DNA from: Dehalococcoidia bacterium
GTDB taxonomy: Bacteria > Chloroflexota > Dehalococcoidia > Lucifugimonadales > Lucifugimonadaceae
Direction: 5' to 3'
Length of the DNA stretch: 64,000 nucleotides
Assembly (NCBI GenBank): GCA_009693115.1
Contig: SHXW01000003.1
Coordinates: 1-64,000, forward strand
Shown piece after piece: positions 5,781-61,822 of this stretch. Each line of letters opens with the position of its first letter. Positions within the stretch are counted from its first letter, which is position 1. The notes beneath the pieces were generated by a model. That model made no database searches, was not told the DNA's origin, and saw nothing but the letters and a program-made list of their open reading frames with translations. The position numbers and the translations under genes were made by a program.

Positions 5781-6164
5781 ATGAGGGGGCAGGGTATGGC
5801 CGGTACGGCCTGCGGTCAAACGTTCGTGAATGCCCCGCTCTGTTTAGGTATCCTCGGTGCGCTCGCCCCGGGCCCGCCGGAGAGGCCCGCATTGGCATCC
5901 CGAAGCCCCGGCGACGAATACAATGCCTCGCTGACAGCATGGGTATTGCAGGCCAAGGGCGAGCGGAACGAAAGAGATCCCTCGGCCCGGTGCGCCGGGA
6001 CCCGGAATGACACGGTTGCAGACAGGACGCCAACCAGAAGCCAGGACTTCGACCCCATCCCTGACCCTCCCGCGCCCAGGGCGCGCCGGGGGAGAGGGGG
6101 ATTCGGGACTTCACCCTCTCGCCAGCCCTCCCCCACTACCGGGGTAGAGGACTTGGAGGCATAT
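5781..6164. other. Repeat-rich gap between divergent genes
   Basis: This 384-bp gap contains a family C-like repeat around 5975-6015 (AGATCCCTCGGCCCGGTGCG and onwards), a family A repeat at 6059-6100 and a degenerate family D palindrome at about 6127-6150. The plus frame happens to stay open through it, but its translation (ERNERDPSARCAGTRNDTV) is that of the repeats, so I do not call a gene. Confidence 0.6.
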
Positions 6165-20969: not shown

Positions 20970-22994
20970 ATGAGACTTGAAGAGATCAGACACATAACCG
21001 TTATCGGCGCCGGATTGATGGGGCACGGCATCGCGCTCGAATTCGCAGCCGCCGGCTTCCCTGTGCGCATCTTTGACAGCGACCCCGCCGTCCTGGAGAG
21101 GGCCGCAGAACACGCACGGCGCAGCGCAGCGCTCATGGCCGAGGCAGGCAGGATCAGGCGCAAGGACATACCGGCGGTGCTGGGGCGCATCAAAGCCGCG
21201 GACAGTATCGAGGCGGCGGCGAGCGACGCGGACGTGGTGGTCGAGGCGGTCTACGAAGACCTCGAAATCAAGCGCAAGGTCTTCGCCGTGCTCGACAAGG
21301 CAGCTCCTGCGCACGCCCTGCTGCTCAGCAACTCATCTGCGTTCATGCCGAGTCAGATCGCAGCTGGAGTTGACCGGCCCGAAAGGGTCGCCGTCGCTCA
21401 CTATTTCGACCCGCCGCACCTGCTCCCGCTTGTGGAGCTTGTGAGCGGGCCGCAAACCGCGCCGGAGACCATCGACACCGCCCGGCAGCTTTATGAGCGC
21501 ATAGGCAAGCGGCCCGTAGTCATTGAGAAGGAGATGCCGGGGTTTGTGGGCAACCGGCTGCAGGGCGCGCTGGGGCGCGAGGCGCGGGCGCTTGTGGACG
21601 CCGGTGTGGCGACGTCCGAGAACGTGGACACAGTGGTGAAGTACGGCTTCGGGCGCAGGCTCGCGCTGGCAGGGCCGTTCGAGGTGTGGGAGCTGATCGG
21701 CTGGGACCTGGTGTCGGTGATCGGCGGCGAGCTGTGGAAGGACATCAGCCGAGACAGCGGAGCAGCGCCCTCCCGGACGCCCTCACCCGAACCGCCTCCC
21801 TACGAGGGAAACGCCCGTGAGCAGGCAGCCAGAACCAGGTACTCAGAGGACATGATGGCGCGCGTTGAAAGCGCGGCGAGCTGGTGCGGGACCTCTGCTC
21901 TCGAGGCGGCGAATCTGCGAGAACGCATGGAGCGCACGCTGGTCGAGATGGTCCGGTGGGACGCCGCTGGAGGGCCACTCCCCTCTCCCTCGGGGTCCCT
22001 TTGGGCGCGAGAGGGAGAGGGTCAGGGTGTGGATAAAAGGCCTCACCCGCACAAGAAACACCCCGGCATCAACCGGGTCGCCGTTATAGGCGCGGGCCTC
22101 ATGGGCCACGGAATCGCCCTCGAATTCGCCGCCGCAGGTTACGAGGTCACGTTCACCGACCGTTCGAAGGAACTGCTCGGCAGCGCGACGCAGCGCGCCC
22201 GCAAGGGGCTGGACCTGCTCGCAGAGGCGGGGCGCATTCCGGCCGGAGAGGTCGAGGACGTGCTCCTCAGGATGAAGCCGCAACCCGGTCTGGCAGAGGC
22301 TGTCCGGGGGGCGGACCTGGTCATCGAAGCCATCTCCGAAAACCTCGAACTCAAGCGCAAGGTCTTCGCCGAGCTGGACGCCGCCGCCCCGGCGCACGCC
22401 ATCCTGCTAAGCAACACATCCACATTCCTGCCCAGCGCGCTGGCGTCCGCCACGAAGCGCGCAGACCGGGTGGCTGTGGCGCACTACTTCAACCCGCCGC
22501 ACCTGCTCCCGGTCGTCGAGGTGGTGCGCGGCCCGCAAACGTCGGACGCCACGATAGATACAGTCATGGGCTTGTTCCGAGACATGGGCAAGCAGCCTGC
22601 GCTTGTTCAAAAAGAGGTGCTGGGGTTCATCGGAAACAGGCTCCAGTTCGCCTTGTTCCGCGAGGCGTTGTCGCTCGTGCAGCAGGGCGTGATCAGCGCG
22701 CCCGATCTGGACCATGTTGTGAAAAACAGTTTCGGGAGACGCCTGCCATCGGTCGGCGTGTTCGACCGGAGGACGCTGCTGAGCAAGCACCTGGCGTCGC
22801 GCAGCGGGAACGAGGTGACGCCCACGCTGGATAACTTCACAGATGTTCCGCCGGTGCTTCTGGAGAAGGTCCGCAAGGGCGAACTTGGCACGAAGGCGGG
22901 CAAGGGGTTTTACGACTGGACGCCGGAGTCCGCCGAGGCGTTGCGACTCCGCATTGGCCGCGGGCTTGTTGAAATGGCGAAGTGGGACGCCTGA
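20970..22994 (+). CDS. Tandem (duplicated) 3-hydroxyacyl-CoA dehydrogenase
   Basis: A 674-residue protein made of two 3-hydroxyacyl-CoA dehydrogenase modules. Each starts with a nearly identical NAD fold (ITVIGAGLMGHGIALEFAAA near residue 9, VAVIGAGLMGHGIALEFAAA near 370) and has the catalytic-histidine motif (AHYFDPPHLLPLVELV, AHYFNPPHLLPVVEVV). Module 2 ends canonically with KAGKGFYDWTPE; module 1's C-terminal segment is aberrant (SRTPSPEPPPYEG). The linker, residues ~333-366, is encoded by a copy of intergenic repeat family A. Module 1 may have reduced activity. The start is the ATG at 20970; the role is in fatty-acid or related acyl-CoA oxidation. Confidence 0.88.
   Translation: MRLEEIRHITVIGAGLMGHGIALEFAAAGFPVRIFDSDPAVLERAAEHARRSAALMAEAGRIRRKDIPAVLGRIKAADSIEAAASDADVVVEAVYEDLEIKRKVFAVLDKAAPAHALLLSNSSAFMPSQIAAGVDRPERVAVAHYFDPPHLLPLVELVSGPQTAPETIDTARQLYERIGKRPVVIEKEMPGFVGNRLQGALGREARALVDAGVATSENVDTVVKYGFGRRLALAGPFEVWELIGWDLVSVIGGELWKDISRDSGAAPSRTPSPEPPPYEGNAREQAARTRYSEDMMARVESAASWCGTSALEAANLRERMERTLVEMVRWDAAGGPLPSPSGSLWAREGEGQGVDKRPHPHKKHPGINRVAVIGAGLMGHGIALEFAAAGYEVTFTDRSKELLGSATQRARKGLDLLAEAGRIPAGEVEDVLLRMKPQPGLAEAVRGADLVIEAISENLELKRKVFAELDAAAPAHAILLSNTSTFLPSALASATKRADRVAVAHYFNPPHLLPVVEVVRGPQTSDATIDTVMGLFRDMGKQPALVQKEVLGFIGNRLQFALFREALSLVQQGVISAPDLDHVVKNSFGRRLPSVGVFDRRTLLSKHLASRSGNEVTPTLDNFTDVPPVLLEKVRKGELGTKAGKGFYDWTPESAEALRLRIGRGLVEMAKWDA
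21976..22032. repeat. Repeat family A copy embedded in frame in a coding sequence
   Basis: An 11-bp perfect inverted repeat (CCCTCTCCCTC at 21981-21991, GAGGGAGAGGG at 22011-22021) encloses TTTGGGCGCGA and is followed by TCAGGGTGTGG. Read on the minus strand it matches the family A intergenic copies. It is translated as PLPSPSGSLWAREGEGQG in the linker between the two dehydrogenase modules. Confidence 0.8.
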
Positions 22995-27086: not shown

Positions 27087-27157
27087 GCTGCCTCCGTGGG
27101 GGCGCTGGCCTGACTGGGTTTTGTCTATTCTCCCTTGCAGGGAGAGGGGAGTTTCAC

Positions 27158-27207
27158 GACCCACTCCCTGGCCCTCTCGCGCCCCGAGGGCACCCGAGGT
27201 AGAGGGT
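27158..27207. repeat. Dispersed repeat family A, copy 4
   Basis: CCTGGCCCTCTCGCGCCCCG followed by AGGGCACCCG and AGAGGG; close to the copy at 61531-61626. Just before it, CTCCCTTGCAGGGAGAGGGG (27130-27149) is the end portion of family B. Confidence 0.65.
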
Positions 27208-32039: not shown

Positions 32040-32252
32040 ATGAAATCAGCGCTGATGGAAATACTGGCCTGCCCGGCGTGCAAGTCGAAGCTCAATCTAG
32101 AGTCTCCGGCACGGAGCGGTGATGACGTTGTATCGGGCACGCTGCGGTGCACGAAGTGCGGCGAGGCCTATCCGATCAAGGACGGCATCCCAAACCTGCT
32201 GCCGCCCGAATACCGTGACAGGCCGGCATCATCCCTGCCCGGCGCGCACTGA
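32040..32252 (+). CDS. Trm112-like zinc-ribbon protein
   Basis: A 70-residue protein with two CxxC pairs (LACPACKSKL, LRCTKCGEAYPI) and the family ending KDGIPNLLPPE. Bacterial Trm112/UPF0434 homologues are thought to activate methyltransferases, as in archaea and eukaryotes. The zinc pair is intact. The last 14 residues extend past the usual end and overlap a 20-bp direct repeat. Confidence 0.88.
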   Translation: MKSALMEILACPACKSKLNLESPARSGDDVVSGTLRCTKCGEAYPIKDGIPNLLPPEYRDRPASSLPGAH

Positions 32253-32318
32253 ACCCGGGGGTTAGTTGCGGCGGTCAGGGCGGGACTTCTCATCACACCC
32301 CGGCGCGCACTGAACCCG
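32238..32318. repeat. Pair of 20-bp direct repeats
   Basis: CCCGGCGCGCACTGAACCCG occurs identically at 32238-32257 and 32299-32318, 61 bp apart. The first copy includes the TGA stop codon of the Trm112 gene. Confidence 0.8.
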
Positions 32319-57694: not shown

Positions 57695-58885
57695 ATGCCT
57701 TACGACACCAGCTTCGCCATCCGGACCGTCCAGCCCCTCCACATCGCCTTCCCGGAGAGCGCCGGGTACTGGGAGGGCTACCGCGCAGGCGAAACATCAC
57801 TCCAGACGGACCGTTTCGAGTTCAAGCCTGGCTGGCAGACCGTATATGCACGTTACGTTGAGACGCCGCTGGTCAAGGTCACGTTCACGGACGGCTCTAC
57901 TGGCTGGGGCGAGGCCAACTGCGGGATAGGGCCAGAGGTGGCATGCCTGCTGCTTGAAGGCGTCATAGGGCCGATGGCTGCAGGGCGCGAGTTCGTCCAC
58001 CCGGTGCAGCTCTGGGACTTCCTGTACGACGCCCAGCGCGGGCGCGGATATTCAGCCGGGTACTATCTGGACGCGCTCGCGGCGCTGGACATCGCGGTGT
58101 GGGACGCTCTGGGCAAACGGGAGGGTGCGCCCGTGGCGGCCATGCTCGTCCCTGCCCCACGCGCCAGCATCCCGGTGTATCTCTCCGGTGTGCGCAAACC
58201 CTCTCTCAAAGAACGCGCCGAGAGTCTTAATAAATGGATCGATACCGGCCTGCGCGGGGCGAAGATATTCCTCACCGGTGATATTGACGCCGGACTCAAG
58301 GAGTTGGACGGGCTGCAGGCCGCCGCTCCCCGTCTTGAACGATGGATGGTGGACACGCTCTGGATGTGCGCGTTCAGTGACGCGGCCCGCGCCAAGAAGG
58401 AATTCGCAGCGCGCGGCACGGTCTTTTTTGAATGTCCGCTCCAGCCGGAGGACCTGGCAGGCCACCGGGCCCTTGCTGCGCTGCCGGGCGCGCCCATCGC
58501 TCTTGGCGAGCACTTCCGCACGCACTATCAGATCGGAGAGTGGCTCGCTGCGCCCCGCGCCCTGGATGTGTACCAGCCAGACATAGGCCGAACAGGCATC
58601 TCTGACTATGTGCGTCAGCTCGACGCCTCGAACGCCGCAGGCATACCCGTCACGCCGCACATGGGCACGGGTGTCTCCATCTTCCAGGCGGCGACGCTGC
58701 ACTGCGCGGGCATCGCCTCGGCGGCGTACCTGCAGGAGTTCCAGGGCGGCCTTTCGGACAAGCTGGGCAAGGCTTCCGACAGCGCGTGGTCGTACCGGGA
58801 CGGGGCGTTTGTCCTGCCCGACAGGCCGGGCCTCGGTGTAGAGCTTGATGAGGCGGGGATAGAGCGTTTTGTTGTGCGCCGTTGA
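57695..58885 (+). CDS. Enolase-superfamily enzyme (mandelate racemase type), second paralogue
   Basis: A 396-residue MR/MLE-type enzyme. The capping domain has TDGSTGWGEANCGIGPEVA; the barrel has the base Lys in LRGAKIFLTGDI (about residue 189) and candidate metal ligands Asp in RWMVDTLWM, Glu in FFECPLQPED and Glu in IALGEHFRTH. YQPDIGRTGISDYVRQL and the C-terminal RPGLGVELDE are typical. It differs greatly from the paralogue at 19293, so a different acid sugar is expected. Confidence 0.88.
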   Translation: MPYDTSFAIRTVQPLHIAFPESAGYWEGYRAGETSLQTDRFEFKPGWQTVYARYVETPLVKVTFTDGSTGWGEANCGIGPEVACLLLEGVIGPMAAGREFVHPVQLWDFLYDAQRGRGYSAGYYLDALAALDIAVWDALGKREGAPVAAMLVPAPRASIPVYLSGVRKPSLKERAESLNKWIDTGLRGAKIFLTGDIDAGLKELDGLQAAAPRLERWMVDTLWMCAFSDAARAKKEFAARGTVFFECPLQPEDLAGHRALAALPGAPIALGEHFRTHYQIGEWLAAPRALDVYQPDIGRTGISDYVRQLDASNAAGIPVTPHMGTGVSIFQAATLHCAGIASAAYLQEFQGGLSDKLGKASDSAWSYRDGAFVLPDRPGLGVELDEAGIERFVVRR

Positions 58886-60422: not shown

Positions 60423-61439
60423 TCAACCCTTCTTCACGGTCTTGCCCGGCCCGGACAGGGCCTTCTTCACGGTCTTGCCCGGCCCGGACAGCGCCTTCTT
60501 CGCACGACGCCAGGCTGACGGCCCCCTCGGACTCAGGTTCGCCGCGAGGAACGCGGCCGTCCCCGGCGTTGACATGATGACGGACCCGGCCCAGTCACGC
60601 AGCGCGGTCATGGTCGCCCGTTCGTTTGTGTAAGGCTGGCGCCAGCCTTCAAAGCGCGCCCATCCCCCCTTGCCATCCGGGAGGAACACCGCACCGCCTG
60701 CCTCCAACACGAGCAGAGACGTGGCCGCGTAGTCCCACACGTGCGAGCCTGACCCGCTGACGGAGAACTGCATCACTCCCGCAGCGACCATCGCTGACTC
60801 ATACGCCGTGCTGCCCGAGACGCGGGGCTCCCCCATGGCCTTCCGCAGTGGCTTGCCCACGCGGTACGCCCAGAACAGCCATGCCGGCAGGCCGGAAAGC
60901 CTGCCTGTGATGGGCGCGCCATCGCCTTCAGGCTGTTTGATTTCGAGCCGGCGTGCGCCCCGGCCTTGCGCGGCCGCGGGGATGAACCACGCGCCACCGC
61001 CGACCCGGGCATGAAGGATGGCGCCCGCGCCGCCGTCTGCAGGCCAGGGGACCCAGACCGCGCCCGCCACAGGCTTCCCACGATGCAGCACCGCGACCGA
61101 CACCGCATGCACGGGCAGGCCGTTTACAAAGTTTGTCGTTCCGTCTATCGGGTCAACGGCCCAGACCCAGTCGGCTGCAGGCGGGGGTTCCGCGGGCGCG
61201 TCCTCCTCGCCGAGGAGCATATGGCCGGGGAACCTTTCCACCGTAAGCGATTCGATCAGCTTCTGACTGGCCCGGTCAACGTCCGTGACTAGGTCAGCGC
61301 CCGCGACTTTGCCCTTGTTGGAAACCTCAAGCACACCGCCAAAACGCCCGGCTACCAGGGCTCCCGCCTGCCGGGCAGCGTCAACCGCGGCGTGTTCGAG
61401 CCGGGCTAGCAGAGCGTCATCAAACGCTGGGGTGGACAT
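60423..61439 (-). CDS. Inositol monophosphatase family protein
   Basis: A 338-residue Mg2+-dependent phosphatase fold. LLGEEDAP gives the first metal Glu, WAVDPIDGTTNFVNGLP the DPxDGT motif, and SHVWDYAATSLLVLEAGG the late WDxAA motif. It may hydrolyse inositol phosphate, histidinol phosphate or another sugar phosphate. A basic tail of two 11-residue units (KKALSGPGKTV twice, then KKG) is encoded by 33-bp tandem repeats and is absent from the family. Confidence 0.88.
   Translation of the reverse strand: MSTPAFDDALLARLEHAAVDAARQAGALVAGRFGGVLEVSNKGKVAGADLVTDVDRASQKLIESLTVERFPGHMLLGEEDAPAEPPPAADWVWAVDPIDGTTNFVNGLPVHAVSVAVLHRGKPVAGAVWVPWPADGGAGAILHARVGGGAWFIPAAAQGRGARRLEIKQPEGDGAPITGRLSGLPAWLFWAYRVGKPLRKAMGEPRVSGSTAYESAMVAAGVMQFSVSGSGSHVWDYAATSLLVLEAGGAVFLPDGKGGWARFEGWRQPYTNERATMTALRDWAGSVIMSTPGTAAFLAANLSPRGPSAWRRAKKALSGPGKTVKKALSGPGKTVKKG
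60428..60493. repeat. 33-bp tandem repeat at the 3' end of the phosphatase gene
   Basis: Two adjacent 33-bp units (60428-60460 and 60461-60493) differ at one base near the end. They encode the repeated KKALSGPGKTV tail on the minus strand. Confidence 0.85.
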
Positions 61440-61822
61440 TTGAGTGTGATCCTCACCTGTAAAAAGGAGCCAATGAGACCGATGACTGTATCTTCTTTCC
61501 AGGCGAGAGGCGGGTGATCAATCGGGCGTTCGACCCGCACCCTGACCCTCTCGCGCCCAGAGGGCATCCAAGGCAGAGGGAGTTCACTCGGCGCCCGCGC
61601 CCAGAGGGCACCCGAGAAAGAGGGGAACAGAGACCCTTGGACCCTTCCATGAACTCAGGACGGCACTAGCTCAGGACGAGCAGGCCGGGGTCGGCACGAG
61701 CCTGGCAGATTGCCTAATATATGTCCCGGCCGGTTCAAGGTAAGATCTTATTGCGCGCGGCAACACGCGCCGGGCCGCCAATGCCGCAGCGACGCCCGGA
61801 AGTAGAAATAAAGGAGGCCGCA
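61440..61822. other. Repeat-rich divergent gap with family A
   Basis: Family A repeats occupy 61531-61626, with two partial units (CGCGCCCAGAGGGCATCC and CGCGCCCAGAGGGCACCC). The remainder before htpX shows no gene. The plus frame stays open from 61721, but the htpX start is at 61823. Confidence 0.6.

Follow-up and report, generated by a model that had tools for sequence, protein, structure and literature searches.

The best-known examples of palindromic repeats that encode protein come from Rickettsia and Wolbachia. The Rickettsia palindromic elements (RPEs) are about 100-150 bp long and, in their obligately intracellular parasitic host, often lie within genes (Ogata 2000/2002, as described in PMC2229807 and PMC10969869). 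Intragenic REPs that carry GTAG or CGTC tags are short palindromes that are mostly extragenic, occur singly, in pairs or in groups, and in some cases lie in frame within conserved genes (Di Nocera 2013, PMC3733652). Some bacterial MITEs, such as ERIC/RU-1 and NEMIS, contribute ORFs that are fused to genes; they are 100-200 bp long, are bounded by terminal inverted repeats and use TA as their target site (PMC2229807).

The repeat described here, found in a window of 64,000 nucleotides (the whole stretch of DNA that was analysed) and in the remainder of the same genome, is a new family of this known kind that behaves like RPEs and the intragenic GTAG/CGTC REPs. As with RPEs, it is a dispersed palindrome that is intergenic and is also found in frame in conserved, presumably functional enzyme genes (valS, carA, a pyruvate-dehydrogenase-E1/transketolase-like gene, hyuA and a tandem 3-hydroxyacyl-CoA dehydrogenase gene), where the conservation of the host genes argues that the copies are translated. 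It is set apart from RPEs by description, because its copies are about 30-50 bp rather than 100-150 bp in length, its host belongs to the SAR202-type Chloroflexota, and it is mostly kept out of genes. As with the tagged REPs, it is a palindrome in the range of 20-40 bp (the core is mostly 29-34 bp) with many copies (77), most of which are extragenic, and it too occurs singly, in pairs or in groups, with some copies in frame within conserved genes. A GTAG/CTAC tag is present in only two of 51 copies, and CGTC/GACG is found somewhere near 18 of the 51 with no fixed position in the flank consensus. There is also no match to the Y1 (RAYT) transposase family PF01797 in the window genome, which is 95.6% complete. 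These absences place the repeat outside the tagged REP classes and thus in a new family. Such a transposase was considered as the mover and rejected, since neither this genome nor most of the repeat-rich relatives contain it; CGTC-tagged REPs likewise have no known transposase (PMC3733652). The repeat shares with MITEs the character of a small non-autonomous element able to extend or interrupt ORFs in frame. However, the size of 100-200 bp, the terminal inverted repeats and the TA target sites are not seen here, although the DNA of relatives is too divergent to define exact junctions. No description of the family was found in the literature on SAR202 or Chloroflexi palindromic repeats that is readable without subscription.

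The tandem dehydrogenase gene and its linker

The repeat copy of main interest lies inside a gene for a tandem 3-hydroxyacyl-CoA dehydrogenase (HAD), whose features are as follows.

20970-22994, plus strand: gene for the tandem 3-hydroxyacyl-CoA dehydrogenase, a single open frame of 674 amino acids
20982-21965, plus strand: HAD module 1, with boundaries inferred from alignment
21774-21815, plus strand: second, decayed repeat copy within module 1, in sense orientation, read as TPSPEPPPYEGNA
21971-22036, minus strand: long-form palindromic repeat copy in the linker, antisense to the gene, predicted to be translated as GPLPSPSGSLWAREGEGQGVDKR
22077-22919, plus strand: HAD module 2, with 3HCDH_N (residues 370-548) and 3HCDH (residues 552-650) assigned by Pfam

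Two stretches each of 3HCDH_N (E 2.6e-121) and 3HCDH (E 1e-28) are present in the ORF, and both modules match the 3-hydroxyacyl-CoA dehydrogenases (PF02737 and PF00725), with NAD-binding and C-terminal helical domains above the Pfam cut-offs. Both also retain what we take to be the catalytic His-Glu pair (H144/E156 and H505/E517). In contrast to the usual enzymes of this family, two complete modules are arranged head to tail in a single chain, and the C-terminal half of the first is eroded. In the alignment, the Rossmann domain of module 1 is intact, whereas the latter half of its C-terminal domain (21750-21965) has decayed and the GxKTGxGxYxW motif is lost. There is a codon signal along the whole ORF apart from 21750-22050, where it is weak. 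The erosion and the weak codon signal together indicate that the module junction is a tolerant region. An AlphaFold model built from three sequences only has a mean pLDDT of 56.6, with low confidence in the linker and in both C-terminal domains, and was given no weight.

According to the earlier note, the linker is a repeat copy in reverse orientation that contains a perfect inverted repeat of 11 bp, and this reading is borne out. The arms are CCCTCTCCCTC (21981-21991) and GAGGGAGAGGG (22011-22021), the palindrome and the flank TCAGGGTG are conserved, and the linker is 79% identical over 48 nucleotides to the reverse strand of the family copies at 61533-61580 and 27159-27206. Its alignment score against other copies of the same genome is 42, and each of 1000 random 64-nucleotide segments of the window scores lower (maximum 29). 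As single-stranded DNA it folds better than shuffled sequences (z -2.4). The copy is in frame as GGPLPSPSGSLWAREGEGQGVDKRP between the two modules. The note's claim that length is preserved does not hold exactly, because this copy carries about six more bases (CCCTCT) than other long-form copies.

A further repeat-like stretch, 'SRTPSPEPPPYEG', had been suspected upstream within module 1. This segment (21774-21812, TPSPEPPPYEG) scores 35, above all 1000 control segments (maximum 29), and 22 of 25 bases match one copy. It is not among the matches of a profile HMM of the short sub-family, and an Rfam search over 19-25 kb of the window gave no relevant match. Since both scores exceed every control, both parts of the observation are considered real.

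In Desulfatitalea, two adjacent but separate HAD genes are flanked by thiolase-like and beta-keto-acid-cleavage-enzyme-like genes, a neighbourhood that may point to the pathway in which the tandem enzyme acts.

Repeat copies across the genome and inside other genes

The genome that contains the window is a fragmented draft of 2.0 Mb in 40 contigs. A 15-base core pattern, allowing up to two mismatches, matches it 98 times, compared with 12 matches for the reversed pattern, and about 77 family copies can be distinguished. The repeat exists in a short form, CACCCTGACCCTCTCCC-n-GGGAGAGGG, and in a long form, which has GCGCCCAAAGGGCACCCGAGG in its interior. Three further long-form copies are located in the window.

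6050-6099, plus strand: intergenic, upstream of a short-chain dehydrogenase gene
27157-27206, plus strand: between genes, or at the upstream margin of a gene for an aldose epimerase
61531-61580, plus strand: apparently intergenic

The first of these was considered as an in-frame case within an open frame of 674 codons, but was ruled out and assigned to the intergenic region because the real short-chain dehydrogenase gene starts downstream of it. Other repeats in the window include two direct repeats of 29 nucleotides located 61 nucleotides apart (32229-32318; TCATCCCTGCCCGGCGCGCACTGAACCCG), which are 90% identical and have a third, distant counterpart at 58146, and a 33-nucleotide tandem duplication (60428-60493, 97% identical) inside a minus-strand coding frame. 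The first residues of the ORF listed from 18372, PRPFDTAQGRL, resemble a further type of dispersed repeat at the start of a gene.

The family is strongly depleted within genes. When copies are required to lie in a frame that scores as coding on both flanks by a simple codon-usage measure and that is open across the copy, only seven of 75 testable copies qualify, compared with 50% of random positions. With a narrower definition of a copy and a retrained codon score, three of 64 pass, and the copy in the HAD gene is itself among those that fail. Under the narrower copy definition, the same trend to avoid genes is evident in three relatives. The family is patchy among relatives more generally, with tens of copies in five of them (G009, G030, G062, G077 and G046) and few or none in small-genome genera; those copies that were examined are mostly intergenic.

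Despite this avoidance, the repeat is found in frame in at least six enzyme genes of the genome, namely the HAD gene, valS, carA, the E1/transketolase-like gene, hyuA and an enolase-superfamily gene. In valS the sequence reads NSAL-SVIPSPLQGEGPGVSVR-APL, compared with a short loop in eleven relatives (for example NSATGNGAPL). The E1/transketolase-like gene contains three tandem copies that add about 40 amino acids and are lacking from ten relatives. The hydantoinase A gene hyuA carries 21 additional residues (PTFPLPRVASGRERARVGVEG) that are absent in eight relatives. In carA, VAQPSRFEGEGRGAGRT and a second repeat-like stretch, SAHPLTPSLATKGNTP, are located within the linker between its two domains; this empty site is less clean than those of valS, the E1-like gene and hyuA, because the carA linker also varies in length among relatives. 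The enolase-superfamily gene carries FPPLPLRERALVRG in frame, and one in-frame case is present in the relative G060 (PDDISPLPQGEGQGEGMQPP). At the cut-offs applied, searches of the genome returned one match each for valS and carA, so the insert-bearing genes appear to be the sole copies in the assembly. The second proposal of the earlier note, that the repeat can enter genes without breaking the frame, is therefore supported by these copies and by the relatives that lack them and holds generally in this genome, and the repeat can add stretches of protein to enzymes in this way.

Several related loci are also of interest. The hydantoinase locus L064, whose gene has an in-frame repeat, contains a 28-residue insert further on, and its C-terminus runs into another long-form copy. 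The ORF L188, which includes ASTLTLALSLSGRGDAY, passed the codon filter but has no Pfam match and was left out of the count. In a relative of another genus (G002), the same domain linker of carA holds another repeat-like peptide of distinct sequence (SVPEPVEGG...LRQAQPSG), which gives the impression that this domain junction is a common landing site.

Antisense copies occur at seven loci (HAD, valS, carA, E1, hyuA, enolase and that of G060), and at five of these the copy is read in one common frame, PSPxxGEGQGxG. These numbers are small, and a shared reading frame is at present suggestive. The repeat consensus is free of stop codons in five of the six frames, which would account for the existence of survivors within genes. 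Such insertions would persist only where their length keeps the frame and where the site is a linker or a surface loop, and most of the survivors would read as PSPxxGEGQGxG.

Probable order of fusion and insertion

The earlier note had proposed a comparison of orthologous loci for separate genes. Among relatives, all from genera other than that of the window genome, such genes are indeed found (G005 and G034; G083 and G081), but so are fused ones. In four members of one genus, g11 (G030, G020, G074 and G077), the same tandem HAD is encoded as a single polypeptide; the linkers span about 22-50 residues, and at the DNA level none of them is the repeat. In the relatives with separate genes, the stop and start codons overlap by a few nucleotides and there is no spacer. 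Module-1 and module-2 sequences fall into separate groups with support of 99/98, which indicates that they are old paralogues derived from an old tandem duplication and that fusion did not depend on the repeat. In the related genus g12 (ten loci, with two others), the first HAD module no longer has its NAD-binding domain, and about 80 residues of its C-terminal domain are left and fused before a complete HAD. In two genomes of this set, the remnant is a separate gene of 135 residues that overlaps the next gene.

We consider it likely that the linker arose by in-frame insertion of a dispersed REP-like palindrome into a HAD gene that was already tandem, and probably already fused, and that the insertion was tolerated as a linker. 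The element would be a palindrome of about 30-50 bp that is mobile now or was until recently, presumably through a transposition mechanism. It would have entered the junction of the two modules in frame, and the inserted copy would be tolerated as a flexible linker rich in Pro, Gly and Glu, probably without being of benefit. An order in which fusion preceded the repeat is the simpler one. However, the linkers of the window gene and of the fused relatives lack homology to each other, and across the relatives split arrangements alternate with fused ones, so this order is probable rather than proven; the fusion in the genus of the window genome could be independent of that in g11.

One alternative, also put forward in the earlier note, is that an intergenic repeat between two HAD genes became the linker once the stop codon of the first gene was lost. 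The copy starts right after the residues (LVEMVRWDA / LVEMAKWDA) that are homologous to the C-terminus of stand-alone HADs, and family copies are mostly intergenic, as would be expected for such a fusion. This route is nevertheless unlikely, given that the fused relatives have linkers free of the repeat, that the genes of the split relatives overlap and leave no spacer in which a repeat could have resided, and that other genes have demonstrably taken up family copies in frame.

It is very improbable that separate genes were joined by collapse at a repeat during assembly or binning. Such repeats can mislead assemblers and the draft is fragmented, but this one is merely some 50 bp long, all 674 codons are open with a coding signal on both sides, relatives have both modules adjacent or in the same chain, and the same repeats are located within independent conserved genes on other contigs. 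Equally hard to credit is a chance resemblance to the repeat of the GC-rich codons in an ordinary Pro/Gly/Glu linker of low complexity. In its favour, relatives' linkers are likewise rich in Gly, Ala, Pro and Glu, but they lack such DNA, and neither the control scores nor the conserved palindrome and flank fit this explanation.

Biological meaning

The insertion into the HAD gene may be one case of a broader process. Perhaps a tag-less palindrome, moved by a putative enzyme and with PSPxxGEGQGxG as its preferred frame, repeatedly supplies ready-made flexible linkers where the domains of conserved enzymes meet, and has in this way shaped multi-domain proteins of free-living SAR202-type bacteria, including the tandem dehydrogenase. 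We regard this as a speculative proposal with the odds against it. The many SAR202 genomes allow the preference for one frame, and that for domain junctions, to be tested. The presence of a tag-less family in a free-living member of the Chloroflexota, in genes with no second copy in the assembly (valS and carA), indicates that this route is not peculiar to reduced parasites. In addition, the pairs of insertions and empty sites offer a natural test of how conserved enzymes absorb 14-40 foreign residues.
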